Of a DNA stretch of 36,086 nt, positions 776 through 32,366 are shown piece after piece. The position numbers and the translations under genes were made by a program. The notes under the pieces were generated by a model. It was not told where the DNA came from. It made no database searches and was given only the letters and a program-made list of their open reading frames with translations. Source of the DNA: Caldifarciminota bacterium (lineage in GTDB: Bacteria; Hydrothermota; Hydrothermia; LBFQ01); the NCBI GenBank assembly GCA_015494805.1, contig WGAN01000119.1, positions 1-36,086 on the forward strand, read 5' to 3'. Position 1 is the stretch's first letter, and each line of letters opens with the position of its first letter.

Positions 776-783
776 AGTCGTCT

Positions 784-789
784 ATTCTA
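784..789 (-). promoter_or_regulatory. -10 element of sucD
   Basis: TAGAAT on the minus strand, ending 8 nt before the ATG. No Shine-Dalgarno is visible, so the mRNA is probably leaderless. It is divergent from the promoter at 865-870. Confidence 0.6.
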
Positions 790-864
790 CTGTCGGATCG
801 TACCGGTTGGGTAGGCTCAACGAGGATTCGGTGGGCGGCTACGGCCCCGTTGCGATGGCACCCT

Positions 865-870
865 TAAAAT
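865..870 (+). promoter_or_regulatory. -10 element of the duplicated hypothetical gene
   Basis: TAAAAT ending 7 nt before the GTG start. The intervening AGAGGAC resembles a Shine-Dalgarno but sits too close to the start codon to be normal. Confidence 0.5.
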
Positions 871-877
871 AGAGGAC

Positions 878-1498
878 GTGAAGGGCGAGGACCTGATAGA
901 GATAAGAGGAATTGATGGAGAGGTTTCATATATAGGCCTCAATACGATCGTCTATGTGGATTCGTTTGTGATTGGTAAAATCGGCGATCTAAACGTGTGG
1001 AAACACAGATACTACCCCTACCACTCGTATTTCATTGATATGTACTTCGTAGAGGTTATGACGGTATGCCCGTACCCGCTTTACGACATGAACAACGCTG
1101 AAGTGAAGATTCATTATTTTGAGGATTATAGGGAAAAGTACGAAAAATTTACAAAAAGTGGTCGTATATCCCCAATAAAACACCCAACAAAGGAGGAGGT
1201 TGAAGCGATGAAAAGGAAAGGGTGGATAAAGGCGGAGCTGTTGGATGGAAACATTCTCCACATAAACCTCTCCCAGATATTCTACATAAAGTCGGCCGTT
1301 GTTGATGAGATAGATGGGCGGAAGATATACAAACACTCCTACTACCTCTTCTACGGCGATGATAGGGAAAGAACGTTGGACATCTTCACCACGACACCCT
1401 CACCCTTCTCCGATCTCAAGGACGCCTTGGAAGAGGACCCCTCACATCCCTACAGGGATACGTACTATTACTACAAGTACGGGAAAAAGGGGAGGTAA
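878..1498 (+). CDS. Hypothetical protein made of two tandem repeats
   Basis: I do not recognise this 206-residue protein. It is an internal duplication: residues 7-46 align without gaps to residues 117-156 at a constant offset of 110. Matched positions include Ile7/117, Asp13-Gly14/Asp123-Gly124, Leu21/131, Ile24/134, Tyr26/136, Lys42-His43/152-153 and Tyr45-Tyr46/155-156. Each unit looks like a small beta-rich domain followed by a charged helix and an aromatic tail. The pattern of a DG turn followed by a hydrophobic strand is loosely like a LytTR domain, but nothing supports DNA binding. There is no signal peptide. The codons are more AT-rich than in the neighbours, which may mean recent acquisition. 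GTG is chosen because of the -10 seven bases upstream. It is a single gene between sucD (divergent) and a non-coding island. Confidence 0.75.
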   Translation: MKGEDLIEIRGIDGEVSYIGLNTIVYVDSFVIGKIGDLNVWKHRYYPYHSYFIDMYFVEVMTVCPYPLYDMNNAEVKIHYFEDYREKYEKFTKSGRISPIKHPTKEEVEAMKRKGWIKAELLDGNILHINLSQIFYIKSAVVDEIDGRKIYKHSYYLFYGDDRERTLDIFTTTPSPFSDLKDALEEDPSHPYRDTYYYYKYGKKGR

Positions 1499-1920
1499 GC
1501 GATCAGGAATTGTCTTCAAATGTGGATTACACTGCTGGGAGATGGCCCACCGGTATTAAGCCGATAGAGGGGGTAATCCACCGTCCGCATAGTCTCGTAG
1601 AACTTCTGAATTTTTGAGTCATCAGGAAAAATGTATAAGATATGGAAATGCCTCGTAAATTTGTGAAAATATGCGGTTATTGCTATTAAGTTGCCTAAAA
1701 TTCTGCAAATATCTCCGAAGAATTCCAAAATTCCTTTATTTTCCCGTTTGATGAGACTGCGGGGCAATCGCCATTCTATTAGTAGAATCCCCAAATCTTG
1801 GACCGCATCAAGTAATACGCCCCACCTTTAAACGGAAATCGTTCTGGCATATGCAGTACGAAAAACTCCTTACATTGGGGAATACATCTCCCTATCAGCC
1901 AAATACCAACCTCCGACGGC
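1499..1920. other. Non-coding island with dispersed repeats
   Basis: These 420 bases between the convergent hypothetical gene and trxA hold no credible gene and are clearly more AT-rich than the flanking genes. They contain two members of the dispersed repeat family: a minus-oriented copy near 1553-1578 and a plus-oriented copy at 1748-1791. The two make a loose inverted pair about 240 bp across. No intrinsic terminator was recognised. Confidence 0.5.
1748..1791 (+). repeat. Dispersed repeat, copy matching 33072-33115
   Basis: The 44 bases match 33072-33115 at 36 positions without gaps (counted by hand), and seven of the eight differences are transitions. The core CCATTCTATTAG recurs in diverged form at other non-coding sites in both orientations. 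Confidence 0.65.
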
Positions 1921-2229
1921 CTATCCCCTCACCTCCTCCAACGCCTTCTTATACACGTGCTTGGGCTTGGCTCCAACTATCCGCTTCACCTCCTTGCCGT
2001 CCTTGAAGAAGAGGATAGTCGGGATGCTCACGACCCCCAACTCCATCGGAACCTCCGGATTCTCGTCCGTGTTCAAGCGGATGAACTTAACGTCCGTATA
2101 GACCTTGGCAAGCTCGTAGAGGTAAGGCTCTATCGCCTTGCAGGGACGGCACCAGTCCGCCCAAAGGTCTACTACCACCGTCCCATCCTTTACCTCCTCC
2201 CAGAACTGCTTGGCATCTACGTCCTTCAT
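1921..2229 (-). CDS. trxA: Thioredoxin
   Basis: Small cytoplasmic dithiol-disulfide oxidoreductase of 102 residues, the usual thioredoxin length. The active site is WCRPCK, with Cys27 and Cys30; the variable position is Arg rather than the common Gly (WCGPC). The cis-proline motif SIPT and the FFKDGKEV strand are in their normal places. No signal peptide. The start ATG lies 7 nt after a TAGAAT -10 whose first three bases are the TAG stop of the upstream beta-solenoid gene, so it has its own leaderless promoter. Together with the PDO at 27966-28637 it suggests active thiol-disulfide chemistry. Confidence 0.95.
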   Translation of the reverse strand: MKDVDAKQFWEEVKDGTVVVDLWADWCRPCKAIEPYLYELAKVYTDVKFIRLNTDENPEVPMELGVVSIPTILFFKDGKEVKRIVGAKPKHVYKKALEEVRG

Positions 2230-2236
2230 AGTTGGT

Positions 2237-2242
2237 ATTCTA
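2237..2242 (-). promoter_or_regulatory. -10 element of trxA, fused to the upstream stop codon
   Basis: TAGAAT on the minus strand, 7 nt before the ATG. Bases 2242-2240 are at the same time the TAG stop codon of the gene at 2240-2758. Confidence 0.6.
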
Positions 2243-2758
2243 ATCCTGTCCTTCGGCCCGCTCCAGATCCCCTATCCCGATGGAGACCTCTCCTTTTATC
2301 TTCCCGTTCCCTCGGACGTCCCCTATCCCGACCTCTACGGAGCCTAAGGTCCCCCCGTTATCCACGTCCCCTATGCTAACCTTTAGGAACCCGATATTCC
2401 CCTCGTTTTTTACGTCTCCCACGCTCAAACGCAGCGTGTCTATGCGTCCCCTGTTTATTACGTTCCCTACGTATATCTCCAGATGGCCCACCTCACTGCC
2501 CACCTCCACCGTCCCGACGGATACGTTCATCCTCCCTACCGGGGCGTCGACCTTAACGTAGTAGCACCTGTCGGTCAGTTTTATCCTCTTCGCCTCCGTA
2601 TCCACAACGACCGTATCTACCTCATTGCAGGAGTAGTCGCTGCTGCTGTACTCGGGGAGGTCGGAGAGTACGGGGAGTACGATGCCAGCGACCGTACCGG
2701 CGACGTAGAGGACCATCCCTAGAAAGGTAAATAGAGCTATGCCCACAACTACACTCAT
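2240..2758 (-). CDS. Membrane-anchored protein with 16-residue beta-solenoid repeats
   Basis: 172 residues. Residues 1-31 form one hydrophobic segment (signal anchor or uncleaved signal), followed by a Ser/Tyr-rich linker. Residues 74-169 consist of six consecutive 16-residue repeats with consensus (I/V)G-x-L-x-(V/I)-S-(V/I)-G-D-V-x-N-x-G, starting at 74, 90, 106, 122, 138 and 154. This strict period with alternating hydrophobics predicts a right-handed beta-solenoid of six coils, similar in style to DUF4097 or polymer-forming (bactofilin-like) proteins. Membership of either family is inference. The C-terminus is acidic. The solenoid probably lies outside the inner membrane. ATG is chosen because a TAAAAT -10 ends 9 nt upstream. 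It is divergent from the secreted protein gene. Confidence 0.75.
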   Translation of the reverse strand: MSVVVGIALFTFLGMVLYVAGTVAGIVLPVLSDLPEYSSSDYSCNEVDTVVVDTEAKRIKLTDRCYYVKVDAPVGRMNVSVGTVEVGSEVGHLEIYVGNVINRGRIDTLRLSVGDVKNEGNIGFLKVSIGDVDNGGTLGSVEVGIGDVRGNGKIKGEVSIGIGDLERAEGQD

Positions 2759-2767
2759 AGAGAGAAA

Positions 2768-2773
2768 ATTTTA
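2768..2773 (-). promoter_or_regulatory. -10 element of the beta-solenoid gene
   Basis: TAAAAT on the minus strand, 9 nt before the ATG; the spacer is pyrimidine-rich, with no Shine-Dalgarno. Confidence 0.55.
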
Positions 2774-2811
2774 CAGCCGCTACACCCGGCCAAAAGTTCC
2801 GACATCCGGTT

Positions 2812-2817
2812 TAAAAT
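2812..2817 (+). promoter_or_regulatory. -10 element of the secreted multidomain protein gene
   Basis: TAAAAT ending 8 nt before ATG 2826. It decides the start: an earlier in-frame ATG at 2739 lies upstream of this promoter and would run across the divergent promoter. Confidence 0.6.
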
Positions 2818-2825
2818 TCTGGGTC

Positions 2826-4802: not shown

Positions 4803-4830
4803 CCGCACCGGGGCGTTCGGATTTAGAATT

Positions 4831-4836
4831 TACACT
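4831..4836 (+). promoter_or_regulatory. -10 element of the cation exchanger gene
   Basis: TACACT ending 6 nt before the ATG. An alternative TAGAAT at 4824-4829 would leave 13 nt. Either way there is no Shine-Dalgarno. Confidence 0.45.
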
Positions 4837-4842
4837 TTTGGT

Positions 4843-8699: not shown

Positions 8700-8705
8700 A
8701 TTTTA
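8700..8705 (-). promoter_or_regulatory. -10 element of the DUF4175-like gene
   Basis: TAAAAT on the minus strand, 8 nt before GTG 8691; divergent from the efp promoter 31 bp away. Confidence 0.6.
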
Positions 8706-8736
8706 GAGGGGAACGGCGACGTAGGGTGTCCTCCCG

Positions 8737-8742
8737 TATAAT
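8737..8742 (+). promoter_or_regulatory. -10 element of the efp operon
   Basis: Consensus TATAAT ending 9 nt before the efp ATG. No -35 resembling TTGACA is visible at normal spacing. Confidence 0.65.
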
Positions 8743-9775: not shown

Positions 9776-10386
9776 ACGAGGGCGGTGAACGGCGGTTGAG
9801 GTTTCGCCAGAGGCTGATAGCAGGGGTGGTTGTTCTCGCCCCCCTGTTCGTGACGGCCTGGGTGGTCGTCTTCATTACTAACTTCATAGCCGGATGGCTG
9901 GCCCGTCCCCTATCCAGAGTGTTGGAACCCGTCCCCTACGTCGTCCTCCTTGTCCCCTCCCTCCTGATAATGTTGGCCGTCATATACGTCGTAGGTTGGT
10001 TTGCCACGACCTACCTCGGAAAGGCTCTATTCGGCTTCCTTGACGAGATCTTCCTAAGCATCCCCGTCCTCCAGCACATCTACCGTATAGCCAAGGACAC
10101 CATAAACGCCGTCTATAACATACCGCGGAAGGTGGCCTTCAGGAAGGTTGTGTGGATAGAGGTGGGGGAGGGGAAGAGGATGCTCGGCTTCGTGACGGAC
10201 GAGACCACAGACGAGTACGTGGTCTTTCTACCCTCCACCCCCAACCCCACTACGGGGTTCCTCCTTCTGGTCAGGAAGGGAAAGGTGTCGGAGGCCAAGA
10301 TGAGCGTAGAGGACGCCCTGAAGGCCCTAATATCCGGAGGACTGATAAATGTTTTTCAAGAGGAACGGTCTGGACGAGCTGCTTAA
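9772..10386 (+). CDS. DUF502 family membrane protein
   Basis: 204 residues. Two transmembrane segments lie near 14-38 and 52-76, followed by a soluble C-terminal domain. Family markers are a segment FLSIPVLQHIYRIAKD after the second membrane helix and FLPSTPNPTTGFLLLV at 150-165, close to the DUF502 (PF04367) signature PTSPNPTSGFL. Function is unknown in the family. Translation is probably coupled to accB through the ATGA overlap. Its end overlaps the corC-like gene by 38 bp in another frame. Confidence 0.85.
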   Translation: MNEGGERRLRFRQRLIAGVVVLAPLFVTAWVVVFITNFIAGWLARPLSRVLEPVPYVVLLVPSLLIMLAVIYVVGWFATTYLGKALFGFLDEIFLSIPVLQHIYRIAKDTINAVYNIPRKVAFRKVVWIEVGEGKRMLGFVTDETTDEYVVFLPSTPNPTTGFLLLVRKGKVSEAKMSVEDALKALISGGLINVFQEERSGRAA

Positions 10387-11128
10387 CGATCTGAAGAAAC
10401 GGGCGGAGAAGGACAAGGAGGTGGAGAAGCTCCTGAAGGGTGTCCATCGTCTCCTCTCCAAGACGGCGGAGGAGGTTATGAGGCCCCGCGTGGACGTGGT
10501 GATGGTCTCGGAGGACGACACCCTGATGGACCTTGTCGCCAAATTCAGGGAGCATCTGTACTCCAAGTACCCTGTACGTTCCTCTGGGGTGTCCGAGGGG
10601 GCGGATATAGTAGGGGTGGCTTACATGAAAGACGTCCTGCTCCATCTGGACAAAGACCTGAACCGTATGAAAGTTGCGGATATAATGAAGCCCCCCTTCT
10701 TCGTCCCCGCTACCCAGAGCTGCTACAACGCCCTGAAGGAGATGCAGAAGAGGAGGGTGTCCATCGGGATAGTGGTGGATGAGTACGGCAGCCCCATCGG
10801 GATAGTCACCATAGAGGACCTCGTGGAGGAGATAGTGGGGGACATATACGAGGAGCATGACAAACCGGAGAGCTTGTACGAGGAACTCCCGGATGGGGGT
10901 TACCTCGTAAACGCCCAGATGCCCATAAGCGAGTTGGAGGACCTGCTTGAGGTGGACTTCGGGGAGACCGAGAGTACGAGCGTAGGGGGGTTTATGATAG
11001 AGAAGTTGGGGAGCATGCCGGAGGAGGGGGAGGTGTTGAGGGTGGATGACGTGGAGTTCAAGGCGGTGGAGGTGTCCCCCCAGAGGATCCTGAAGGTGAT
11101 GGTTCGGAAGATGGGAGGGGAGAGGTGA
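10349..11128 (+). CDS. corC: CBS-domain protein of the CorC/HlyC family
   Basis: Soluble 259-residue protein: a short N-terminal helix, two CBS domains (about 42-105 and 110-167, with the VTIEDLVEEIVGDIYEEHD motif at the end of the pair) and a C-terminal CorC_HlyC transporter-associated domain (about 178-255). It lacks the DUF21 membrane domain found in larger relatives, like E. coli CorC. A link to Mg2+/Co2+ efflux is known for some members; here it is inference. A GGAGG Shine-Dalgarno lies 8 nt before the ATG, inside the DUF502 gene. It overlaps hprK by 4 bp (GTGA). Confidence 0.88.
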   Translation: MFFKRNGLDELLNDLKKRAEKDKEVEKLLKGVHRLLSKTAEEVMRPRVDVVMVSEDDTLMDLVAKFREHLYSKYPVRSSGVSEGADIVGVAYMKDVLLHLDKDLNRMKVADIMKPPFFVPATQSCYNALKEMQKRRVSIGIVVDEYGSPIGIVTIEDLVEEIVGDIYEEHDKPESLYEELPDGGYLVNAQMPISELEDLLEVDFGETESTSVGGFMIEKLGSMPEEGEVLRVDDVEFKAVEVSPQRILKVMVRKMGGER

Positions 11129-12078
11129 GGTCCCCGACCGTGAGACTTGAGGAGGTGATCCGCCACTTTCCGGGACCCCTTGAGATCATATACGGGAGGA
11201 GGCTCCTACGCCGTAAGGTGAGGTCCCCGGACCTCAACCGTCCAGGGCTACTACTCGCCGGCTTCACCCGTGAGTTCCCCCGCGAGAGGATCCAGATCCT
11301 CGGCCTCACCGAGAGGGCCTACCTCCTTCACCTTATGCGTGAGAAGGGCCGAAGGGAGGTCCGGAAGGCCCTGTCCCTCCTCTTCTCTAGGAAGGTACCG
11401 GCTGTCGTCCTAACTGCCTCTGGCAGGAAACTCCCCGACAGCCTAATAACCGTAATCCTTGAGGTCGCCCGAACCTACCGTACCCCTGTCCTATCTACCC
11501 CTATCCAGACTCCGTACTTTATGGCCCGTATGGCCGATAGGCTAACCTACCTCCTCGCCCCCCGTACGACTGTCCACGGCGTCATGGTGGAGATCTACGG
11601 CGTCGGCGTCCTCATAGTTGGGAAGCCCGGCGTAGGAAAGAGCGAGACCGCCCTTGAGCTGATAAGGAGAGGCCATCGCTTCGTAGCGGACGACGTCGTC
11701 CTGATCCGTAGGTACCCCCCGAACTCCCTCCTCGCGGAACCCCCTCCGGGTAGGGAGGACTTCATGTTCTTTATGCTCATTAGGGGGGTGGGGACGGTGT
11801 ACGTACCCCACTACTTCGGCGTGGGGGCGGTCAGGAGGCAGTACCCTCTCCACGTGGTGGTTGAACTCTCCGAAGGTGAGGAGAGGCCAGTTGAGGAGAC
11901 GGAACTGCTCGGCATAACCTTACCCAAGTACAGGGTGAAACTCCACCCCCTTAAGGCGACGGCTACGGTCGTGGAGAGCATGGCCCTCCACTACAAGGCG
12001 AGGGTCCTGCGGGACATCATCCGCCTCCCCGACTTTGAGAGCCTCCTTGAGGCCTACCTAAGGGGCGAAACCCCTTAG
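11125..12078 (+). CDS. hprK: HPr kinase/phosphorylase
   Basis: Bifunctional enzyme that phosphorylates and dephosphorylates a serine of HPr, linking carbon status to regulation. It has 317 residues, family length. The N-terminal domain (1-130) is followed by the kinase domain: catalytic His151 in HGVMVEIYGVG, P-loop GKPGVGKS at 166-173, and Asp189-Asp190 in RFVADDVV. The C-terminal K-loop region lies near LGITLPKYRVKLHPLK. No ptsH or other PTS gene is in the window, so its partner is unknown; a PTS-independent role is possible. GTG start overlaps the corC stop (GTGA) behind a GGAGGGGAGAG Shine-Dalgarno. Its TAG stop doubles as the start of the next -10. Confidence 0.92.
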   Translation: MRSPTVRLEEVIRHFPGPLEIIYGRRLLRRKVRSPDLNRPGLLLAGFTREFPRERIQILGLTERAYLLHLMREKGRREVRKALSLLFSRKVPAVVLTASGRKLPDSLITVILEVARTYRTPVLSTPIQTPYFMARMADRLTYLLAPRTTVHGVMVEIYGVGVLIVGKPGVGKSETALELIRRGHRFVADDVVLIRRYPPNSLLAEPPPGREDFMFFMLIRGVGTVYVPHYFGVGAVRRQYPLHVVVELSEGEERPVEETELLGITLPKYRVKLHPLKATATVVESMALHYKARVLRDIIRLPDFESLLEAYLRGETP

Positions 12079-12081
12079 AAT
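12076..12081 (+). promoter_or_regulatory. -10 element of the LEA14-like lipoprotein gene, fused to the hprK stop
   Basis: TAGAAT whose TAG is the hprK stop codon. It ends 6 nt before the next ATG. Confidence 0.6.
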
Positions 12082-12571: not shown

Positions 12572-13399
12572 TCAGAGTCCCCTCTCCAGGTCCGTTAAGG
12601 CCCTCAAGCTCCCGAAGGTGGTCGTTACGAGTACGACGACGAGGATGCCGCCCAAGAGGAGGGCGTTGAACCGTAGGATACCCGGAACGGGGTCGTACCG
12701 TCCGGCAAAGTACAGAACCAACGGGGCGACCACTGCCCAAGATACGAGGGTGTAGAGGACGGAGAGGAGGACGTAGGGATAGCGGAGACGGAAGGGGGAA
12801 ACGCCGGCGAGACGGAGGATCTCTATCAGGTTCCTACGGTGATGCACGACGAACCTCACGGTGTAGAAGGAGACGAGGAGACTAACTACGAAGGCCGTAA
12901 GGAGGACCACCACGTTGGCGCCTAAGAGGAAGTTGAAGAAGTCTTGGGCGGCCTTCAGCCATTCCCTCCCGTAATACACCCCCGCCACACCCCTGTAAGC
13001 GGAGATCTCCCCGCTTAGGAGGTCCAGGAACCGTACATCCCTCCAGTGGTCCTTGGGATAGACCCGGAGCATAGGGTAGAAAACGTCCTCGCCCAGGCGG
13101 TTGAGGAGGTCAGCGAGCTGGGGATAGAGCTTCACGAACTCCTCGCGGGCCTCCCTCTCGCTCACGATCTCCACCCTCTCCACACCTCCGAGAACCTTCA
13201 GGAAGGACTCCACCTCCTCCGCCCTTACGGCGGGAAACACCTCTATACGTACGGCGTCCCTGATTCGGGAGTACGTGTAGTAAGACACGTAGGTGGCGTT
13301 AGCCGTCAGGACGACCATGAAGATGGATAGGGTTATACCGAGGACGGCGAAGACGCTCCGGTAGGAGGCGGCGAGGAAGGCCTTAAGTGCCTCTTTCAT
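12572..13399 (-). CDS. ftsX: Cell division protein FtsX
   Basis: Permease-like partner of FtsE, which controls peptidoglycan hydrolases during division. It has 275 residues: TM1 at about 15-38, a periplasmic domain at about 45-150 (EVFPAVRAEEVESFLKVL, typical FtsX), then three TM helices near 160-185, 207-230 and 240-262, and the C-terminal FGSLRAL. No ftsE is adjacent, which is unusual because ftsE and ftsX are normally paired. It is last in murB-ftsA-ftsZ-ftsX; its ATG lies 17 bp inside the end of ftsZ, consistent with translational coupling. Confidence 0.9.
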   Translation of the reverse strand: MKEALKAFLAASYRSVFAVLGITLSIFMVVLTANATYVSYYTYSRIRDAVRIEVFPAVRAEEVESFLKVLGGVERVEIVSEREAREEFVKLYPQLADLLNRLGEDVFYPMLRVYPKDHWRDVRFLDLLSGEISAYRGVAGVYYGREWLKAAQDFFNFLLGANVVVLLTAFVVSLLVSFYTVRFVVHHRRNLIEILRLAGVSPFRLRYPYVLLSVLYTLVSWAVVAPLVLYFAGRYDPVPGILRFNALLLGGILVVVLVTTTFGSLRALTDLERGL

Positions 13400-14507
13400 C
13401 CTGGAAACCCTTGAGGATCTCCTCCACCTCCCTCTCGGCGGCGGCGTCCTGGAGGGCGTTGAGGATATAGGAGTCGGGATTCACGCCGGATATGATTACG
13501 GAGATCTTGACCCGGTCCAGCATACCCTCCTTGTTCTTCGTGAAGTCTCCGGCCTTAACGTAAGGCTGCCGCCCCGCCATTATGATCTCGTTCTTCAGGA
13601 TGCTTACCACGGCCTGGGCCTTCTCCCACGTAAGGGACTTGCCGCTGTGGAAGAAGCCCACGAGGAGGGTACGGGCGCCGCTGAAGCTCTTTATGGACAG
13701 GTGCTTCTTCCTCTCGTTTAGGATGTCTGCCACCTTGGAGACGTCGTTGGCGCTCGGAAGCTCTATGGTGGAGACGAAGGCGAACTTGGAGACGTTCTGC
13801 TCCCCCGGTCTCGGCGGTTCCAAGGCCTTCTGGATGTCGTTGAAGTCGAGGTTGGGCTTACCGTAGTCTTCGCTTATGTCTAAGATGGTCATAATGGTGT
13901 TGGCCACGTACTTGTCGGCCAGCTCGTAGGCTTCGCTTATGGGTTTGTTGGGGTCCACTATGCTGCCGTTGTTTATGACGACTATGGAGTCAAGTAATCC
14001 GTAGTATTCCGCCAACCCCTGTTTCGCTATCTCCGTCTTCACCCCAGCCTCCATATCCTCCGGGTATATGAGTATGCCCATTATCAGAGCTTCGGGAAAC
14101 ATCTCCCTCAGGTACTCCACTATCACCGGACCCGATCCCGTCCCCGTTCCACCGCCGAGGCCAGCGGTCACGAGGATGAGGTCGTACTCCGGCGCCTCCT
14201 CACCGTCGGGGGAGTGCTTCAGGGCATCCAGCGCTCCGTCGCTTATGGCCTTCAGGGCCAGCCTCCTCCCCCTCTCCGGATCGGAGCCAGCTCCTCTTCC
14301 CTTCTTCCCCAGCTGTATGGTCATACCCACGTTCTGTAGATTGCGGAGGTTCTGCCTGTCCGTGTTTATGGCATACACGTCCACCTTATAGGGGTAGGTC
14401 GCTGGGTTGATATACTGACCGGCCACCTGATCCACGATGTTGCAGCCGGCTCCTCCGATTCCCACCAGTAGTATCTGCGTACTCTGTTCCTCGTCGCGAT
14501 CAATCAT
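13383..14507 (-). CDS. ftsZ: Divergent FtsZ, tubulin-like division GTPase
   Basis: 374 residues. The tubulin-type GTP-binding motif is GGGTGTGSG at 118-126; canonical bacterial FtsZ has GGGTGTGAAP. The T7 catalytic loop NLDFND at 219-224 keeps the acidic residues, so GTPase polymers are expected. The N-terminus ILLVGIGGAGCN and INTD (47-50) are standard. The middle and C-terminal parts diverge, and the tail ends VEEILKGFQDERGT without the usual conserved C-terminal peptide that binds FtsA and ZipA. Neighbours murB, ftsA and ftsX make it the likely division FtsZ rather than a CetZ- or TubZ-type protein. A strong AGGAGGT Shine-Dalgarno lies 5 nt before the ATG, overlapping the ftsA stop. Confidence 0.88.
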   Translation of the reverse strand: MIDRDEEQSTQILLVGIGGAGCNIVDQVAGQYINPATYPYKVDVYAINTDRQNLRNLQNVGMTIQLGKKGRGAGSDPERGRRLALKAISDGALDALKHSPDGEEAPEYDLILVTAGLGGGTGTGSGPVIVEYLREMFPEALIMGILIYPEDMEAGVKTEIAKQGLAEYYGLLDSIVVINNGSIVDPNKPISEAYELADKYVANTIMTILDISEDYGKPNLDFNDIQKALEPPRPGEQNVSKFAFVSTIELPSANDVSKVADILNERKKHLSIKSFSGARTLLVGFFHSGKSLTWEKAQAVVSILKNEIIMAGRQPYVKAGDFTKNKEGMLDRVKISVIISGVNPDSYILNALQDAAAEREVEEILKGFQDERGT

Positions 14508-14509
14508 AC

Positions 14510-15733
14510 TTAACCTCCTTTTTCCTCTATGCCGAAGACCTCCCTCTTCAGGAAGTCAAGGAACTTCTTACCCCACCCCTTCCCACGGAAGGAGCCGTTC
14601 CTGTTGGGCTTACCCTCAAGGGGGGAGATGTCCCTCATCAGCTTGGACGCCCCGTGGAAGACGAGTTGCTCCGGCGGTACGTCCGTAAAGGCCAACGGTT
14701 CGGGGAAACCGGCGTCGGATATGTACTCGTTTATACGGCGGTAGTTGGCTAGACCCCCGGATACGCTTAAGGTGAAGGCCCTGTCGCCGTTTCCAACGAC
14801 CTCCCTTACGGTGTCGCTCCCTAAGAACTCCGAGAAGGTCCGGCGGAGGATCCCTTCAACTATGGTGGTGTCTATGCTCTTCCCCTGAACCTGAACGATC
14901 CGGCTCCCCTCCTTGAGGTACCGCTCTAAGACCTCAAAGCTGTACCTCGGCGGTATGCTCAAGGTGGAGCTTATGGCCTTTATGATGCTGTGTCCGCCCT
15001 TTCCGTACTCGCCGTAGGAGAACACCCGGCCGTTTATGAGCTTTATTACCCGGAAGGAGGTGTGGCCGAGGTCCAGGTGGACGTGCAGGTCCACGCCCAG
15101 CTCCACCGCACCGAGGGCGGCGCATATGGGAGAGCTGTAAGCACCGAGAGGCTCCAGTTCGGGTTCCCCGTACAGGTGGTTGTACTCCCTGAACACGTCC
15201 ATCAGGTTCTCGTATATGTCCCGCGTCACGACCACCCCTACAGCCCTACCTTTCAGGATATCAACCCTAAGCCCTCTGGGATTCTCGACGTCCCTCTCCT
15301 TTCCCTTCTGCACCACCCGGTAGCGGGATACGGCGAAGAAGAGGGCGTGTCCGTCCGTCCCCGTTATTTTCTCCTTCAGCTCCGTATGGAGCTTCTCCAC
15401 CTGCTCGTTGGTGACCCGTCCGTCCTCGGAGGAGTGGGAGACCGAGATCTCGTGGTCGGATACCTTGAAGAGGGTACTGTCCTTCAGATGCACGGCCAGG
15501 ACCGTGGGTACGACCCCGTCCTGCGGTAGTTGGACACTGCTCGCAAGCCTGCTGACTATCTCCCGCACCGTTTCTGTAAGGGCGTCCAAGTTGGATATGT
15601 ACCCCGTAAAGCCCCTCGTCTTCACCTCTTCCACCTTGGAGACCCCTGCGGTCCCCACCATCGCAGCCCTCGTCCTGAAGGCTCCCAGATCTATCACCAG
15701 GACCCCAGAGATTTCCCTATCTGACGATCTCAA
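14510..15733 (-). CDS. ftsA: FtsA-like actin-fold membrane anchor
   Basis: 407 residues of the actin/Hsp70 fold. Phosphate-1 motif VIDLGAFRTRAAMVG lies near 13-27. A 1C-type insertion spans about 75-175. Phosphate-2 is HLDLGHTSFRV and the adenosine motif is FTLSVSGGLANYRRI. All are recognisable but diverged from canonical FtsA. The last 20 or so residues (KKFLDFLKREVFGIEE) form an amphipathic helix preceded by a basic, Gly/Asn-rich linker, as expected for the FtsA membrane-targeting sequence. It should tether the FtsZ ring to the inner membrane. The start is TTG, with a GGAGGT Shine-Dalgarno 6 nt upstream, 17 bp inside murB. Position between murB and ftsZ supports the call. Confidence 0.85.
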   Translation of the reverse strand: MRSSDREISGVLVIDLGAFRTRAAMVGTAGVSKVEEVKTRGFTGYISNLDALTETVREIVSRLASSVQLPQDGVVPTVLAVHLKDSTLFKVSDHEISVSHSSEDGRVTNEQVEKLHTELKEKITGTDGHALFFAVSRYRVVQKGKERDVENPRGLRVDILKGRAVGVVVTRDIYENLMDVFREYNHLYGEPELEPLGAYSSPICAALGAVELGVDLHVHLDLGHTSFRVIKLINGRVFSYGEYGKGGHSIIKAISSTLSIPPRYSFEVLERYLKEGSRIVQVQGKSIDTTIVEGILRRTFSEFLGSDTVREVVGNGDRAFTLSVSGGLANYRRINEYISDAGFPEPLAFTDVPPEQLVFHGASKLMRDISPLEGKPNRNGSFRGKGWGKKFLDFLKREVFGIEEKGG

Positions 15734-16574
15734 TTTCTACCTCCAGTTCTATACCAAAAGCCCTCCTTACGCGGTCGCGCACGTACTCTATGAGTCTTAT
15801 CGCATCGTCTGCCGTCCCACCCTCGTTCACGAAGAAGTTGGCGTGCTTCTCCGACACCTTCACACCTCCCACCCTGAACCCCTTGAGACCGGCTAGATCT
15901 ATGAGCCTCCCGGCGTACTCACCGGGGGGGTTTTTAAACATACAACCGGCCGTCCTCTCCGTCCAGGGTTGGCTCCTCTCCCGGTAGGTTAGGAACTCCT
16001 CTATCCGGTCCCTGATGGCGGCGGGGTCGTCCTCCTCCAACTTGAACAGGGCCTCCACGAGGATCCCAAGTTCCGGAAGTAGAGAGGAACGATAGGCCAG
16101 CCCCAGCTCGTCCCTTCTGTACGTGCGTACGTTTCCTTCGCCGTCTACGACGTAGGCCTCCACCAGGATGTCCCTTATCTCCCTACCGTGGGCGCCGGCG
16201 TTCTTCGCCACTCCCCCACCCACCGTACCCGGAACACCGACCACGTACTCAAAGCCACTCAACCCCCTCTCGGCCATCTCTCTCGCTATGCGGGGGAGAG
16301 GCTCACCGGCCATCAGGTAGGCCCTATCGCCCCTGACCTTCACCCCACGGAGGTTGGCCAACCTGATCACGAGGCCGTCAAATCCGGAGTCGGAGATCAG
16401 GACGTCCGAACCAGCGCCGAGGGGCAGAATCCGGAGGTTCCTGTCCAGGGCGAACTTCACACCCTCCACTACGTCCTCAACCGTACGGGCGTTGATGAAG
16501 TACCGGGCGGGACCACCGAGACGAAAGGTGGTGTAAGGGGCCAGGGGTACGTTCTCGCGGATGAGGGTGGGCAT
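15717..16574 (-). CDS. murB: UDP-N-acetylenolpyruvoylglucosamine reductase
   Basis: FAD- and NADPH-dependent reduction of the enolpyruvyl group to form UDP-MurNAc in peptidoglycan synthesis. It has 285 residues, type II length. FAD-binding motifs are GAGSDVLISD (53-62) and VGVPGTVGGGVAKNAGAHG (112-130). Tyr161-Arg162 lie in the substrate site. The proton-donor position is Cys211 in AGCMFKNPPG; Ser or Cys occurs here in type II enzymes. It heads the minus-strand operon murB-ftsA-ftsZ-ftsX. The ATG lies 8 nt after a TATAAT, so the operon mRNA is probably leaderless. Confidence 0.96.
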   Translation of the reverse strand: MPTLIRENVPLAPYTTFRLGGPARYFINARTVEDVVEGVKFALDRNLRILPLGAGSDVLISDSGFDGLVIRLANLRGVKVRGDRAYLMAGEPLPRIAREMAERGLSGFEYVVGVPGTVGGGVAKNAGAHGREIRDILVEAYVVDGEGNVRTYRRDELGLAYRSSLLPELGILVEALFKLEEDDPAAIRDRIEEFLTYRERSQPWTERTAGCMFKNPPGEYAGRLIDLAGLKGFRVGGVKVSEKHANFFVNEGGTADDAIRLIEYVRDRVRRAFGIELEVEIEIVR

Positions 16575-16582: not shown

Positions 16583-16588
16583 ATTATA
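16583..16588 (-). promoter_or_regulatory. -10 element of the murB-ftsA-ftsZ-ftsX operon
   Basis: Consensus TATAAT on the minus strand, 8 nt before the murB ATG. Confidence 0.65.
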
Positions 16589-16641
16589 GGGCAGGCACGT
16601 TAGGTCCGGGGCCTACGATACATCGGACATAATTTCCAAGA

Positions 16642-16846: not shown

Positions 16847-16861
16847 GAAAAGCGGCCCCCG

Positions 16862-16867
16862 TAGAAT
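16862..16867 (+). promoter_or_regulatory. -10 element of maeB
   Basis: TAGAAT ending 9 nt before the ATG. Confidence 0.6.
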
Positions 16868-19135: not shown

Positions 19136-19144
19136 AGTCCGCCT

Positions 19145-19150
19145 TAGAAT
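19145..19150 (+). promoter_or_regulatory. -10 element of the ubiA operon
   Basis: TAGAAT. It ends 9 nt before GTG 19160, and only 3 nt before the alternative GTG 19154. Confidence 0.55.
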
Positions 19151-21829: not shown

Positions 21830-21835
21830 ATTCTA
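21830..21835 (-). promoter_or_regulatory. -10 element of the HAD gene, fused to the dnaA-like stop
   Basis: TAGAAT on the minus strand; the TAG (21835-21833) is the stop codon of the dnaA-like gene. It lies 6 nt before TTG 21823. Confidence 0.6.
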
Positions 21836-22993
21836 CAGGAGGTCCCTCCGAAGCACCTTCAGCTTACCGTTGAACTCCTCCGCCTTATCGGGGTCGTTCT
21901 TGAGGATCGCCTTCGCCCGCTTTATGTAGTTATACACGCTCGCCCTTGAGCATCCGACCCTCTCTGCTATCTCCGTCGCCTTGAAACCGAGGAGTCTCAT
22001 AGCATATACGGCGAGGTAGAAGTTGGCCCCCTTCCTCCGGGTATCCCTGACACCGAAGAGGGAAAAGACGTCCTCTCCATCGTCGTCGGTGAGGTCGGAT
22101 ATGAGGTTGCGGAAGGTGGTAAAGTCCGGAAGCGTCCCGTAAATATCGGTATGCGCCCTAACCCTGACGGCGACCCCTAGGAGGGCGCGGGGGTTATGGA
22201 CCCTCTCAAGGACGTAGCCCTCGTAATCCGGAGGTAGGGACACCCCGTGGAGAGACAACCGGGCGTGGAGGATCCTCCTCCGTACGGCAGCAGGGTACGG
22301 GTGGATCTTGAGGACGAGGTTGGACATAAGCCTGTTGCGGAAGGATTTGGGCTTGCGGAAGCCTTTCGGCCCGATCTCCGAGGCCATGACCACCGTCCTC
22401 CCCGTTGAGTTGGCCCTATCCATAAGGCGGGATAGGAACTCCAAGGCGAAGACCTTGCCCTTGAGGGTATGGACGTCGTCTATCAGGACGACCTCGGCAT
22501 CCTTGAGGTTGGAGAAGTCCGGCCTCCCACCGCTCCTGTAAGCCCCCACCAGTCGCTCCATGATCTTGCCGGCGGTGAGATATACGGCCTTCCTACCGGC
22601 GAACTGGGCGAGGTTAGCCGTAGCCTTGAGGAGGTGGGTCTTGCCCATGCCAGCCTCGGCGGTTAAGAAGACGGAGGAAGCCAAACCTCCGCCGAGGGCG
22701 ACGCTCCGCAGGGCCGCCACCGTGAACTCGTTTTCCTTACCGTAGAAGAAGTTGTCAAAGGTCTCCCGGAAGACCTTCTTCCCCCCCTGTGGGTAGGTTA
22801 GCACCACCTTTATACCGAGCCTCGCTTCTACGTCCCGTATATGGTTGGCAAACCTCTCCTGCAGGAGGCGGGCTAGGATCTCGTTCCTACACTTCAGGAC
22901 TATGCTGTTTCCCCTCTCCTCCACCCCGTCCACGAAAGCGAGGAGCGAACCCAACTTGTGCAGTTTCAGGAGGCCGACTAGGGTCCTATCCAA
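21833..22993 (-). CDS. dnaA: Divergent DnaA-like AAA+ protein
   Basis: About 386 residues. A domain I-like N-terminus (1-67) is followed by the AAA+ core. TFDNFFYGKENEF (78-90) is the classic entry motif. Walker A is around AGMGKT (114-119), Walker B VVLIDD (168-173), sensor I VVMASE, and sensor II Arg in NPRALLGV. Two things are odd. The box VII arginine finger, normally RLxSRF, reads RLMSNL (221-226). The domain IV signature RDHTTVLHA is replaced by SRASVYNYIKRA (349-360) in a generic helix-turn-helix. It may be the lineage's initiator or a DnaA paralogue such as an Hda-like regulator. TTG 22993 is chosen from the -10 and from domain I alignment; an ATG at 23164 would add 57 unconserved residues. 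Confidence 0.78.
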   Translation of the reverse strand: MDRTLVGLLKLHKLGSLLAFVDGVEERGNSIVLKCRNEILARLLQERFANHIRDVEARLGIKVVLTYPQGGKKVFRETFDNFFYGKENEFTVAALRSVALGGGLASSVFLTAEAGMGKTHLLKATANLAQFAGRKAVYLTAGKIMERLVGAYRSGGRPDFSNLKDAEVVLIDDVHTLKGKVFALEFLSRLMDRANSTGRTVVMASEIGPKGFRKPKSFRNRLMSNLVLKIHPYPAAVRRRILHARLSLHGVSLPPDYEGYVLERVHNPRALLGVAVRVRAHTDIYGTLPDFTTFRNLISDLTDDDGEDVFSLFGVRDTRRKGANFYLAVYAMRLLGFKATEIAERVGCSRASVYNYIKRAKAILKNDPDKAEEFNGKLKVLRRDLL

Positions 22994-23002
22994 GGGTTGG
23001 AT

Positions 23003-23008
23003 ATTATC
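23003..23008 (-). promoter_or_regulatory. -10 element of the dnaA-like gene
   Basis: GATAAT on the minus strand, 9 nt before TTG 22993 (or the overlapping TAATAT, 7 nt before). Confidence 0.45.
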
Positions 23009-23193
23009 CTGCGGATGGAACGCAGGGATGAGGGAGCGGAAACCTACGGAGGAGCCTAACTCCATACAGCTTATGCGAAAATTGAACCACTTGAGGGGTG
23101 AAACGGAGGCGTACGGAAGAGAGGGAAATTGACCACCGCCTACGGTCTCCGTGCTAAGGGCCAAACTTCCCTACGAGTACGGAAAGAATTCTT

Positions 23194-23245: not shown

Positions 23246-23309
23246 CCATCACAGGACTACCCACCCTACGCCCAAACATTCGCAGTAAAATCTCACATAA
23301 TTTCGGCCT

Positions 23310-23315
23310 TACAAT
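23310..23315 (+). promoter_or_regulatory. -10 element of the RAMP-like gene
   Basis: TACAAT ending 6 nt before GTG 23322, the same layout as at 31284-31289. Confidence 0.55.
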
Positions 23316-24056: not shown

Positions 24057-24354
24057 GGTTCCATTGGCCTTGATGGGCGAGGGCGTCGGTAAGTCTCACC
24101 TCAAGTTCTCGGTCCGATACCTGACGTTGCACTACCCTTGAAGGGTTTGGGGTGGGAAGGATCCTTCCGCCTACTGGTTGCTCTGCAAAATCTCAATTTT
24201 GAACTCAATTTGGCATTGCACCGATAGGGTGATGCTCCGTCCGGTATTTCACTGATAACGTCCTTGTACTCCTTATGGCCAATTTTGAACGGACGGCCCA
24301 CCTTTGGACGGGAAGGTGAGGGATAGCCTACCTTCCACCCGACATCACCCCAAC

Positions 24355-24447
24355 CGCACCTTCAAAAACTGAAAGTCAGACTTTAGGAAACTTGATGATA
24401 GTCGGACCTCAAGATTCCTATACTCCCATTAACGGATTTTGAAAGGG
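24355..24447 (+). repeat. About 90-bp diverged repeat, copy A
   Basis: Begins CACCTTCAAAAACTGAAAG and ends CCCATTAACGGATTTTGAAA. It is related to the block at 25033-25125. Its second half is also found inverted at about 32921-32965. Confidence 0.5.
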
Positions 24448-25032
24448 ACCAGGGAAAACCTCCCTCCTGTGATATGGAGAATTTCATACCGCCGACTCCC
24501 TTAGGATGGATATCACCCCATCCACAGAATGCCCTCAATTGGATAGGCTCTCCCCGTTGGTATTACGCCTGATGTCAAATTTTGAGTAGTATCGGTAAAG
24601 ACTCGCACTTTTGGTGAATTAAAGATGAATGGATGTTTGGGTATGTTTTAAAAACCGCAAAATTGACTTTAAAAAATATTAATTGCGTTTCAAAATTCCC
24701 GCAATCTCCGTCAAAGAATTCGGCACTACGCCGACAGGTACTCCTCCCGTTCGCACCTTCAAAAGTTGAAAAGCTGACAATCGCGCTTTGGGATTACTGC
24801 AAGCTGATGGCAAGATTTTGAAGTTTATTGCCGGGTCCTACCCCGGAGAGTTGAAGCCGGGTTTAGGGAGATCGCTCATCGGGATTTGGGATTTTGGCAC
24901 CTATCATACGGAGAATTCCGTTTCGGCGGATCATCGGGGGCCGTTGTCAAAGTCGCCGAATACTGGGAAGCGACCTATACCGATGGAGGGTCCATCGCCT
25001 GAAGTTGTATCCGGGAGGGATGTGAAGATCGT

Positions 25033-25125
25033 CTGTCCTTTCAAAAGCTGAAAATCAGACCTCAATAAACCGTAAGTTGTACTTCAAGATTCTTACAATC
25101 CCATTTGCGGATTTTGGAAGGCATC
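25033..25125 (+). repeat. About 90-bp diverged repeat, copy B
   Basis: Same order of blocks as copy A: CCTTTCAAAAGCTGAAAATC, a variable centre, then CTTCAAGATTCTTACAATCC and GCGGATTTTGGAAGG. It ends just before the tRNA-Val terminator. Confidence 0.5.
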
Positions 25126-25142
25126 TCCTATGCTCCACCAAC

Positions 25143-25164
25143 AAAAAAATGGGCCTTTCGGCCC
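25143..25164 (-). terminator. Intrinsic terminator of tRNA-Val
   Basis: On the minus strand GGGCC-GAAA-GGCCC is followed by A and seven T. It starts 3 nt after the tRNA 3' end and is the clearest intrinsic terminator in the window. Confidence 0.9.
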
Positions 25165-25167
25165 AAG

Positions 25168-25255: not shown

Positions 25256-25261
25256 ATTATA
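25256..25261 (-). promoter_or_regulatory. -10 element of tRNA-Val
   Basis: TATAAT on the minus strand. The leader TATAATATCAACCTC closely matches that of tRNA-Asp. Confidence 0.65.
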
Positions 25262-25299
25262 CGGTGGAAAGGTGGGTGTGGTGGGGCCTTTATCCGGCT

Positions 25300-25305
25300 T
25301 ACAAT
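25300..25305 (+). promoter_or_regulatory. -10 element of the HIT-GT4 operon
   Basis: TACAAT ending 8 nt before ATG 25314. It rules out an in-frame extension back to 25251. Confidence 0.6.
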
Positions 25306-27950: not shown

Positions 27951-27965
27951 TGCCTAAACCTCCTC

Positions 27966-28637: not shown

Positions 28638-28647
28638 GGCACCCGCT

Positions 28648-28653
28648 ATTATA
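28648..28653 (-). promoter_or_regulatory. -10 element of the PDO-rpmF-plsX operon
   Basis: TATAAT on the minus strand, 10 nt before the ATG; 38 bp from the divergent -10 at 28692. Confidence 0.6.
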
Positions 28654-28691
28654 CGCCCGAAAGTTGGGGCGATGCAAACGCCCTACACAGG

Positions 28692-28697
28692 TATAAT
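28692..28697 (+). promoter_or_regulatory. -10 element of the LYS1-type dehydrogenase gene
   Basis: TATAAT ending 8 nt before ATG 28706. Confidence 0.65.
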
Positions 28698-28705
28698 CGC
28701 CGGTT

Positions 28706-30210: not shown

Positions 30211-31159
30211 CCCCTTCCACCCTCCTTATTCGCTCGTATATCTTCCGCTTTATCGTATCGGCCACCTTCATACTCCGGTAGCCGTCTTCGGCGCTCACCG
30301 CCACCTCTCCCTCTCCCCTTACGGCCTTGAGGAAGGCCTCCAACTCCAACGTTATGGCGTCCTTCGTGGCATCTACGGGGGGGAAGTAGGGGATAAGCTC
30401 GTCCCCCACCTTCTGCACCATATCTATCCGCCTCCGGTAGAGGTCTATGGAGAGGTACCTGTCCATAACGAAGACCCTGAACTTCCTCATCTTCTCAAGG
30501 GAGACGCGGCTCGCCGTTAGATTGGCGGCGGAGCCGGAGGGGAACTCCAACCTGACGTTGGCGATGTCTATGTCTCCGGTTATGACCGGGATGCCGACGG
30601 CGCTCACGGATTCCGGCTCCTCCCCCATCAGGGAGAGGGTGAGGTCTATGTCGTGTATCATCAGGTCAAGGATGACGTCTACGTCCGTACCGCGGGGGTT
30701 GTAGACGCTCATCCGGACGCTCTCTATGAAGTACACCCTCCCTTCTATGTACTCCTTCGCAGCAATGAAGGCGGGGTTGAACCGCTCTATGTGGCCCACC
30801 TGAACCTTGACGCCGTACCTCTTGGAGAGCTGCACTATCTCCCTCGCCGTCTCAAGGGAGTCGGTTAGGGGTTTCTCAACGAAGACGTGCCTACCTTTGA
30901 CTATGCTCTCCCGCGCTATCTCGTAGTGGGCGGTCGTCGGGGCTGCTATCACCACGGCCTCAACGTCCTCTATGAGGGCTTGGAGGGAGGGGTAGGCTAC
31001 CGTACCGTACTCGGAGGCCACCTCCCCGGCGCGGGAGGGGTTTATGTCGTAGATACCGACCAGATGGGCGAAATCTATCTCTTTAAGCCTTTTGACGTGA
31101 AGCGAACCCAGATAACCCACCCCCACGACACCCACGCGGACGGGTTCAGAAAAAAACAA
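30191..31159 (-). CDS. Gfo/Idh/MocA-family dehydrogenase
   Basis: About 322 residues. Rossmann motif GVGYLG at 13-18, the EKP motif at 95-97 with the catalytic Lys96, and GHIERFNPAFIAAKEYI. The GHxERFNP form is common among Gfo/Idh enzymes of nucleotide-sugar and lipid A pathways (UDP-GlcNAc 3-dehydrogenase type); that specificity is inference. The first in-frame start is TTG 31159, one base after the 3' end of tRNA-Asp; a GTG giving a start at VGVVGVGYLG is the alternative. No promoter is visible between tRNA and gene, so it is probably co-transcribed with the tRNA. Confidence 0.88.
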   Translation of the reverse strand: MFFSEPVRVGVVGVGYLGSLHVKRLKEIDFAHLVGIYDINPSRAGEVASEYGTVAYPSLQALIEDVEAVVIAAPTTAHYEIARESIVKGRHVFVEKPLTDSLETAREIVQLSKRYGVKVQVGHIERFNPAFIAAKEYIEGRVYFIESVRMSVYNPRGTDVDVILDLMIHDIDLTLSLMGEEPESVSAVGIPVITGDIDIANVRLEFPSGSAANLTASRVSLEKMRKFRVFVMDRYLSIDLYRRRIDMVQKVGDELIPYFPPVDATKDAITLELEAFLKAVRGEGEVAVSAEDGYRSMKVADTIKRKIYERIRRVEGDADTRS

Positions 31160-31160
31160 G

Positions 31161-31235
31161 CGGGGACGACGGGATTTGAACCCGCGACCTCCGGCGTGAC
31201 AGGCCGGCGTTCTAACCGGGCTGAACTACGTCCCC
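31161..31235 (-). tRNA. tRNA-Asp (anticodon GTC)
   Basis: 75-nt cloverleaf: acceptor GGGGACG/CGTCCCC, discriminator G, anticodon stem CCGGC/GCCGG around CTGTCAC, T arm GCGGG-TTCAAAT-CCCGT. CCA is not encoded. It is followed directly by CTTG and a T-run inside the start of the next gene. Confidence 0.97.
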
Positions 31236-31248
31236 GTTTGAGGTGGAT

Positions 31249-31254
31249 ATTATA
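31249..31254 (-). promoter_or_regulatory. -10 element of tRNA-Asp and the downstream dehydrogenase
   Basis: TATAAT on the minus strand, 13 nt before the tRNA; leader TATAATATCCACCTC, nearly the same as for tRNA-Val. Confidence 0.65.
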
Positions 31255-31283
31255 AGGGGGTAAAGGGGTCGTTGTGGCGGCCC

Positions 31284-31289
31284 TACAAT
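31284..31289 (+). promoter_or_regulatory. -10 element of the beta-barrel gene
   Basis: TACAAT ending 6 nt before ATG 31296; it excludes an in-frame extension to 31272. Confidence 0.6.
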
Positions 31290-31295
31290 AGCCGT

Positions 31296-31994
31296 ATGCT
31301 CCTCCTGACCGCCTTCGTCTATATGCACCACGAGGCTTGGGCCTCCTTCTCCAAGTTCTCCTACAGGTACAGGGACAAGAGCGCCCTCGCCGACATCGGC
31401 GGCTATATGAGAGCCTTCAGGTGGGGTAGGTACGGCCTGGCCTTCGGGGGAGATTTCGTCGTATGGTTCGGATACGACGTCGGCCCCATACAGTTGGACC
31501 CCATATACGCCGACTACTACGCCTGGCTTGGGGGCTTCCGGGAGTTCGCCAAAGGGGTGGGCTACCTCTTTCTGGAGCATACCTGCTTCCACTACATAGA
31601 CCGCTTAGACACCCTCCCCCTCTACTGGAACGCTTTCCGACTCCTCTACCGTGAGAGGGACGTCGAAGTGTCCCTAACCCAGTACCTCTACGACCCCCGG
31701 TACAAGTTCCTATCCCAGGGGGCGGATTGGGGGACGGCCTTCTCCGCCTTCCGGAGGTTCAGGCGCCCCCTCAAGGGTGATATGGCAGCCTTCTTAGACG
31801 TCAGTTTGACCGTCGCCGCGGCGAGGGACTACAGGAGGGTTAGGGGTAGCCTGAAACTGGAGGGTGGGGTGGAGTTTCGGAGTAAAGAGGGAGACCTAAC
31901 CGCCGGTCTGGGCTACCGGCCGTACGATAAGATGGGGACGATAAGGGACGCCGAAGGGGTGCCGTACGTCTTCCTTCGGGCGAGGGGGTTTTAG
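31296..31994 (+). CDS. Predicted outer-membrane beta-barrel protein
   Basis: 232 residues, not assigned to a family. A short hydrophobic start (MLLLTAFVYMHHEAWA) ends in a plausible Ala-x-Ala-like cleavage site. The rest alternates polar and aromatic/hydrophobic residues in short strands (GGYMRAFRWGRYGLAFGGDF, VEVSLTQYLYDPRY, LKLEGGVEFRS, DLTAGLGYRPYD) and ends YVFLRARGF with a C-terminal Phe. This pattern fits an outer-membrane barrel of about 10-12 strands. Function unknown. The start is fixed by the -10. Its stop overlaps that of the convergent DUF5362-like gene by 4 bp. Confidence 0.7.
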   Translation: MLLLTAFVYMHHEAWASFSKFSYRYRDKSALADIGGYMRAFRWGRYGLAFGGDFVVWFGYDVGPIQLDPIYADYYAWLGGFREFAKGVGYLFLEHTCFHYIDRLDTLPLYWNAFRLLYRERDVEVSLTQYLYDPRYKFLSQGADWGTAFSAFRRFRRPLKGDMAAFLDVSLTVAAARDYRRVRGSLKLEGGVEFRSKEGDLTAGLGYRPYDKMGTIRDAEGVPYVFLRARGF

Positions 31995-32353
31995 AGGCTG
32001 TAGAGGTCGTAGAGGGAGGGCATGTAGGTGGCGAAGTAGAGGACGAAGGCGATTACGGATATGATAGTCAGGATTATCCCGATGACCACGAGGATGCCAG
32101 ACCATACGAAGTAGGAGCCGAGGTCATCAAGGGCGGCGTAGAGGGCCGTAGGGTCATCGCTGTACTTCAACCTGTCCAAGTTGTCGGCGGCACTCCAGAG
32201 TTTCATCCCCAAGATGATCGTTATAATGCCGAAGGGGATGGTGACGCATCCGAGGATGTAGCCGACGGCGGCTATGTAGTACATTATGGCGAGGAACTTC
32301 GCCCATCCCGTCCCCCTTATTACGCTGCGGAGTCGCTGCAAATCAACCTGCAT
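31991..32353 (-). CDS. DUF5362-like small membrane protein
   Basis: About 120 residues. An N-terminal amphipathic stretch, TM segments near 21-49 and 86-114, and a hydrophilic middle (SAADNLDRLKYSDDPTALYAALDDLGSYF). The order GWAKFLAIM, a membrane hairpin, ILGMKLWSAA and a second hydrophobic part matches DUF5362 proteins as I recall them. Function unknown. ATG 32353 is chosen because a TATAAT ends 7 nt upstream; an ATG at 32419 would place the start inside the tRNA-Pro gene. Confidence 0.75.
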   Translation of the reverse strand: MQVDLQRLRSVIRGTGWAKFLAIMYYIAAVGYILGCVTIPFGIITIILGMKLWSAADNLDRLKYSDDPTALYAALDDLGSYFVWSGILVVIGIILTIISVIAFVLYFATYMPSLYDLYSL

Positions 32354-32360
32354 CGCAGGT

Positions 32361-32366
32361 ATTATA
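32361..32366 (-). promoter_or_regulatory. -10 element of the DUF5362-like gene
   Basis: TATAAT on the minus strand, 7 nt before ATG 32353. Confidence 0.65.

Follow-up and report, generated by a model that had tools for sequence, protein, structure and literature searches.

Predicted leaderless operon heads and a promoter with a near-invariant C at -18 in a family of candidate division WOR-3

Leaderless transcription is an already known mode of gene expression. Its predicted share of genes is about 19% in Actinobacteria and about 39-40%, up to 46%, in Deinococcus-Thermus (PMC3160421), whereas about 60% of the genes of D. deserti are leaderless (PMC9031893). In M. tuberculosis the figure is 26% of the genes that have a primary start site, and no ribosomal protein gene is leaderless (PMC3898074). 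In Sulfolobus solfataricus, according to the work as cited in PMC3160421, single and proximal genes are leaderless and distal genes Shine-Dalgarno-led. As for promoters, recognition is aided by the Z-element, a sequence at -17/-18 that the beta' zipper and sigma region 3.0 touch, and an extended -10 element can replace a missing -35 element (PMC5101437). Here we analyze a stretch of 36,086 nucleotides (hereafter the window), contig 119 (WGAN01000119.1) of a metagenome-assembled genome (1.88 Mb, 218 contigs, 86% complete, 4% contamination) of candidate division WOR-3, now Caldifarciminota in NCBI, a lineage that belongs neither to Deinococcus-Thermus nor to Actinobacteria. A first-pass annotation of the window had proposed leaderless transcription as the rule for operon heads, preceded by TANAAT-like hexamers, together with Shine-Dalgarno sites at internal genes. 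In this genome, most operon heads carry such a hexamer as part of a longer, one-piece promoter; their mRNAs very probably begin with the start codon itself and lack a leader, while downstream genes keep Shine-Dalgarno sites.

Start codons were called from coding score only, blind to upstream sequence, in a sample of 511 kb (27% of the 1.88 Mb) taken as contig stretches. A first position survey covering the window and 40 of these stretches revealed a TANAAT peak 5-10 nt before the starts of divergent and head genes, with almost none elsewhere, and a sharp peak of Shine-Dalgarno words before internal genes. Over the 511 kb, TANAAT occurred with a gap of 5-10 nt to the start codon in 148 of 259 non-internal genes (about 6 expected from neighboring positions) and in 26 of 218 internal genes (0.7 expected), an odds ratio of 9.8 (p = 4e-26). 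Equal hexamer density at internal genes, which the first-pass annotation had named as evidence against its own proposal, is therefore not what the genome displays. A second method, a model choosing start codon and signal jointly, assigned to the hexamer class 82% of heads (95% confidence interval 77-87, from a contig bootstrap), 87% of divergent genes, 19% of internal genes, and 53% of all genes; with shuffled upstream regions the class fell to 10% of heads. The leaderless rule proposed for heads would thus hold for about 80% of them and fail for the remainder. The Shine-Dalgarno class comprised 53% of internal genes versus 10% of heads, in line with the proposal that such sites dominate internal genes. 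Shuffled purine-rich upstreams of internal genes still yielded 45% of this class, which is consequently weakly specific, so that the Shine-Dalgarno side depends to a greater degree on how sharply these words peak in position. The joint model was also trained anew on each of five further data sets from the genus and on one from the sister genus, and every time it recovered the same motif. In the window alone, with blind starts, 15 of 32 genes have TANAAT at a gap of 5-10 nt (dinucleotide shuffles: mean 0.2, maximum 3 in 1000); the contrast between heads (11/19) and internal genes (4/13) is not significant there (p = 0.17), because several genes that are internal by distance have their own promoter.

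The hexamer had been treated as a bare Pribnow box, but the actual element is longer (CNNCNKTANAAT). When 121 confident heads were aligned on the hexamer by a model that knew the hexamer only, a C overlooked by the first-pass annotation was found six bases upstream of it (-6) in 92% of them, with T-rich positions further upstream, a C three bases before the hexamer in 66%, and G or T directly before it. With the hexamer placed at -12 to -7, this C lies at -18 and the T-rich positions at -21 to -19, so that a base-specific signal at -17/-18, the mark of a Z-element, is present in 92-93% of heads. Since the joint model in its extended form uses the C while choosing starts, the unbiased figures are those of the hexamer-only alignment, of the counts near starts against inside genes, and of the blind-start counts across the family. 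The C accompanies 137 of the 148 hexamers near starts versus 23 of 104 inside genes (p = 3e-32), and C enrichment is limited to -6, -3, and, weakly, -2 relative to the hexamer. It is also found in 24 of the 26 internal-looking genes with a hexamer, for which reason we read these as probably having real second promoters rather than as noise. As had been noted for the window, no TTGACA-like -35 element is visible (a best match of 2.74 at 15-19 bp spacing versus 2.68 in shuffles), and the TG of an extended -10, one base upstream of the hexamer, occurs in only 2 of the 121 heads.

Further support comes from genes that are not translated. In the data of the family, all 16 tRNA genes heading a unit carry the C-N5-hexamer element 8-17 nt before the mature end, and the two remaining tRNA genes directly follow another RNA gene or sit in a tRNA cluster; therefore, the element works at the level of DNA, being a promoter and not a ribosome signal. 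It is also conserved: at orthologous positions in relatives the start codon is kept in 37 of 41 cases and the hexamer in 32 of those 37, and among 33 aligned pairs, identity reaches 91% at the C against about 35% in the flanks. The suspicion that these are chance AT-rich hexamers helped by fitting start codons was reasonable for a reading in which starts were chosen by eye and three start codons offered many options, but blind starts, shuffles, fixed-distance controls, the fixed C, conservation, and the tRNA genes already refute it and leave it a negligible probability. That the promoter serves an alternative sigma factor or a regulon instead of the housekeeping polymerase might be suggested by a motif so unlike the textbook promoter and by the second sigma-70-like protein that this genome encodes besides RpoD. 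It is nevertheless very improbable, as the motif stands before about 80% of head genes, including murB, efp, and thioredoxin, and before all head tRNA genes found.

The housekeeping promoter would accordingly be a single piece, about TTTCNNCNKTANAATA, lacking both a -35 element and a TG extension. Ending 6-10 nt before the start codon at most heads, it would direct the polymerase to the codon's first nucleotide: the 7th base past the hexamer as the default or, where pyrimidines come before it, a purine (usually the A of ATG) up to a few positions beyond. Ribosomes would read the resulting leaderless mRNAs without Shine-Dalgarno contact. Several observations bear on the start site. The smallest tRNA gap to a mature 5' end is 8 nt; therefore, transcription starts there at most 9 nt after the hexamer. 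Among ATG genes with gaps of 7, 8, and 9 nt, the purine-poor bases are each time the last two before the ATG (the last base is a purine in 7-15% at gaps 7 and 8), which implies that the pyrimidines move with the ATG and not with the hexamer. With blind starts, in this genome and separately in its relatives of the genus, starts with GTG or TTG cluster at gap 6 and those with ATG at 7-9 (p = 1e-4 to 1e-3), as we would expect were transcription to begin on the codon's own first nucleotide, since a weak initiating base should do best at the default position and a strong one tolerate several. RNA polymerase is known to favor purines and to vary its start point between 7 and 9 nt from the -10 element, going beyond that where the discriminator is rich in pyrimidines (PMC5101437). 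This behavior, like the tracking of the ATG by the pyrimidines and the dependence of the codon's first base on the gap, speaks against very short leaders made by a fixed start 7 nt after the hexamer, under which composition should follow the hexamer. The span of gaps from 6 to 10, which with such a fixed start would leave 0-4 nt before the codon (1-4 nt in most mRNAs), is what recommends this alternative, and we regard it as unlikely.

Leaderless heads combined with Shine-Dalgarno-led internal genes, as the first-pass annotation supposed, therefore appear to be the best reading of these sequences, given the position of the hexamer, the pyrimidines that track the ATG, the relation between start codon and gap, the tRNA promoters, and the conservation in relatives. 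Heads also agree with the description of leaderless (TA-led) genes, which have a hexamer about 10 bp upstream of the start (gap 6-10 in most heads here) and lack a Shine-Dalgarno site (10% of heads in that class). Some points weigh on the other side: the 5' ends are deduced from sequence and the start codons are predictions, gaps of 9-10 nt leave room for leaders of 1-4 nt, and about 18% of heads do not fit. Loss of the initiation factor IF3 or of ribosomal protein S1 as a cause was rejected, as genes for IF3 and an S1-like protein are present (the latter only as a contig-edge fragment in this genome).

One of the closest parallels, the TA-led genes of Deinococcus-Thermus (PMC3160421, PMC12340547), shares with these a TANNNT about 6-7 nt before the start, the lack of a leader (predicted here), and the presence of Shine-Dalgarno genes in the same genome. 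The overall share is similar as well, 53% of all genes predicted here against about 40% and up to 46%, high but not unheard of. Our case differs from it in the TANAAT hexamer, the fixed C at -18, the T-rich -21 to -19 positions, the phylum, and the concentration at operon heads. As benchmarks, 50 kb plasmid stretches showed weak TANNNT enrichment in Thermus (4 versus 0.7), Deinococcus (6 versus 1.3), and Rhodococcus (3 versus 1.0), and are too small and plasmid-biased for shares to be compared. M. tuberculosis likewise has a TANNNT -10 element, no -35 consensus, a pyrimidine before the start site, and two initiation modes (PMC3898074), but there leaderless transcription covers 26% of the genes that have a primary start site, as compared with a predicted 82% or so of heads here. 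With S. solfataricus, as far as the citation describes it, the division of labor between first and later genes is the same, although archaeal transcription machinery operates there and a bacterial -10 promoter here. Z-element and extended -10 promoters also have a signal just upstream of the -10, at -17/-18 (PMC5101437); unlike them, the present element has a single base that is near-invariant genome-wide, lacks TG, and coincides with a changed zipper residue. A limited literature search, confined to papers outside subscription, found no report of leaderless genes in WOR-3; within those bounds, neither the -18 C promoter nor so near-complete a use at heads in a bacterium of this phylum seems to have been described. 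This gives an uncultured phylum a large case of operon heads predicted to be leaderless. For annotation, gene finders relying on Shine-Dalgarno sites likely misplace starts in such genomes.

To follow the C across the phylum we used 147 genomes from 37 families, among them the family of this genome (f1, 8 genomes). The C accompanies non-internal hexamers in all four f1 data sets (138/148, 64/67, 25/29, and 16/16) and is absent at this position from the sister families f2 (0/14 hexamers) and f7 (0/13). Outside f1 raw blind-start counts were used, as the joint model overfits on small sets; in those 40 kb sets the leaderless share it gave was mostly not clearly above shuffles. By these counts, hexamers near non-internal starts are enriched in f2 (7 versus 1.0) and f7 (8 versus 0.7), and the small samples of the remaining families gave no clear hexamer excess. 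Because f2 and f7 have enriched hexamers without the C, leaderless starts may predate the C, which looks like an innovation of f1.

The residues of the Thermus beta' zipper that contact -17/-18 are Y34, R35, T36, and L37 (PMC5101437). In our alignment, the zipper stretch reads INYKTL in f1 versus INYRTQ (or INYRTQR) in the other aligned families of the class. We take the Thermus residues Y34-L37 to fall in INYRTL. In a DNA pattern search, the Lys form was present in all 8 f1 genomes and in none of the 139 others of the phylum, whereas the Arg form was found in 98 of the others and in no f1 genome, the remaining 41 matching neither pattern. The C at -18 may be read by this zipper, in a Z-element contact altered by the family-specific Arg-to-Lys change, a suggestion that we make tentatively, with confidence much below that placed in the rest of the explanation, and against which it counts that the correlation comes from a single change, on a single branch that bears many further substitutions. 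In this family a general promoter has a near-invariant base at -18, where sequence usually counts for little, and this coincides with a substitution in the polymerase residue that contacts the position; such a specific pairing of base and residue could be probed by a single substitution in each partner. Immediately preceding the zipper, an insert of 13 residues (L234, the rpoC of this genome; L275-L277 and L292-L293) is present in f1 and f2 and absent from the other aligned families. It was rejected as the reader of the C, being common to f2, which does not have the C. Nor is a loss of -35 reading visible in sigma: compared with the E. coli sequence, the RpoD residues that read the -35 element look conserved. 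Region 4.2 of RpoD (L224) does show f1-specific substitutions, including Glu at residue 546 versus Lys, Arg, or Ala in other families.

A further peculiarity concerns the ribosome. The 3' end of the f1 16S rRNA (L295-L298; G000:C206:89-105) is GGAACACCTCC instead of GGATCACCTCC. This form occurs in 7 of the 8 f1 genomes, the present one among them, and was found nowhere else in the phylum. The change corresponds to U1532A in E. coli numbering, at a near-universal U; the anti-Shine-Dalgarno CCTCC is intact. The eighth genome (G039) has only the usual end (L294) on a 16S rRNA that differs from the rest of the family, and probably owes it to contaminating contigs in the assembly. It is conceivable, though we consider it doubtful, that the family rebuilt its general promoter, replacing the -35 contact by a C at -18 read by the altered zipper (Arg to Lys) and setting the start on the start codon, and that with U1532A beside the anti-Shine-Dalgarno, the initiation of transcription and that of translation changed in concert.

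Of the 20 units that the first-pass annotation proposed in the window, 18 are exact: their TANAAT ends 6-10 nt ahead of a start codon, and 17 of the 18 have the C at -6. On the minus strand, C-N5-TAGAAT lies at 784..795 (gap 8 to ATG 775, succinyl-CoA ligase alpha subunit), 2237..2248 (gap 7 to ATG 2229, thioredoxin, internal by distance), and 21830..21841 (gap 6 to TTG 21823, HAD-IIA hydrolase), C-N5-TAAAAT at 2768..2779 (gap 9 to ATG 2758) and 8700..8711 (gap 8 to GTG 8691), and C-N5-TATAAT at 16583..16594 (gap 8 to ATG 16574, murB), 28648..28659 (gap 10 to ATG 28637, protein disulfide oxidoreductase), and 32361..32372 (gap 7 to ATG 32353, DUF5362). The plus strand carries C-N5-TAAAAT at 859..870 (gap 7 to GTG 878) and 2806..2817 (gap 8 to ATG 2826, a start moved in from 2739); C-N5-TATAAT at 8731..8742 (gap 9 to ATG 8752, elongation factor P), divergent from the promoter at 8700..8711, and at 28686..28697 (gap 8 to ATG 28706); C-N5-TAGAAT at 16856..16867 (gap 9 to ATG 16877, malic enzyme with PTA domain) and 19139..19150 (gap 9 to GTG 19160, UbiA prenyltransferase); and C-N5-TACAAT at 23304..23315 (gap 6 to GTG 23322), 25294..25305 (gap 8 to ATG 25314, HIT protein), and 31278..31289 (gap 6 to ATG 31296). 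The sole exact unit without the C is the TAGAAT hexamer at 12076..12081 (+; gap 6 to ATG 12088). The elements of murB and the HIT protein gene are kept in one stretch from a relative (L248), those of the malic enzyme and UbiA genes in another (L251).

Two of the proposed units were revised. For the Na/Ca antiporter gene (ATG 4843), the TACACT chosen at gap 6 is without the upstream C and is better replaced by C-N5-TAGAAT at 4818..4829 (+), whose gap of 13 probably means a leader of a few nt. The unit at 23164 fails, with no TANNNT at gap 3-15. The protein encoded there (21833-23164, -), at a gene head without promoter motif, combines a DnaA-type ATPase domain with a weak (E = 4e-6) sigma-70 region 4-like helix-turn-helix, and has no clear DnaA C-terminus. 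Three tRNA genes have C-N5-hexamer promoters: tRNA-Val at 25256..25267 (-; gap 14 to the mature 5' end), tRNA-Asp at 31249..31260 (-; gap 13), and tRNA-Pro at 32386..32397 (+; TAGAAT, gap 14). Both initiation modes would meet in the operon at 13383..16574 (-), where the predicted leaderless head murB is followed by two Shine-Dalgarno genes, at 15733 (TGGAGG, gap 6) and ftsZ at 14507 (AGGAGG, gap 6). Internal Shine-Dalgarno genes are also found at 10349..12078 (+), namely a CorC-like gene (CGGAGG, gap 8) and hprK (GGGAGG, gap 6).

The 1.1 kb between a predicted leaderless gene and tRNA-Val (24057-25166) contains no called gene or Rfam match. Finally, a similar sequence of about 45 nt (ATTCNNCTNATAGAATGGNGATTGCNCNGCAGTCT...) occurs twice, at 1778-1730 and 33102-33055 (-), with no third copy in the sampled contigs; each occurrence includes a promoter-like hexamer, and the pair possibly represents a small repeat or RNA.

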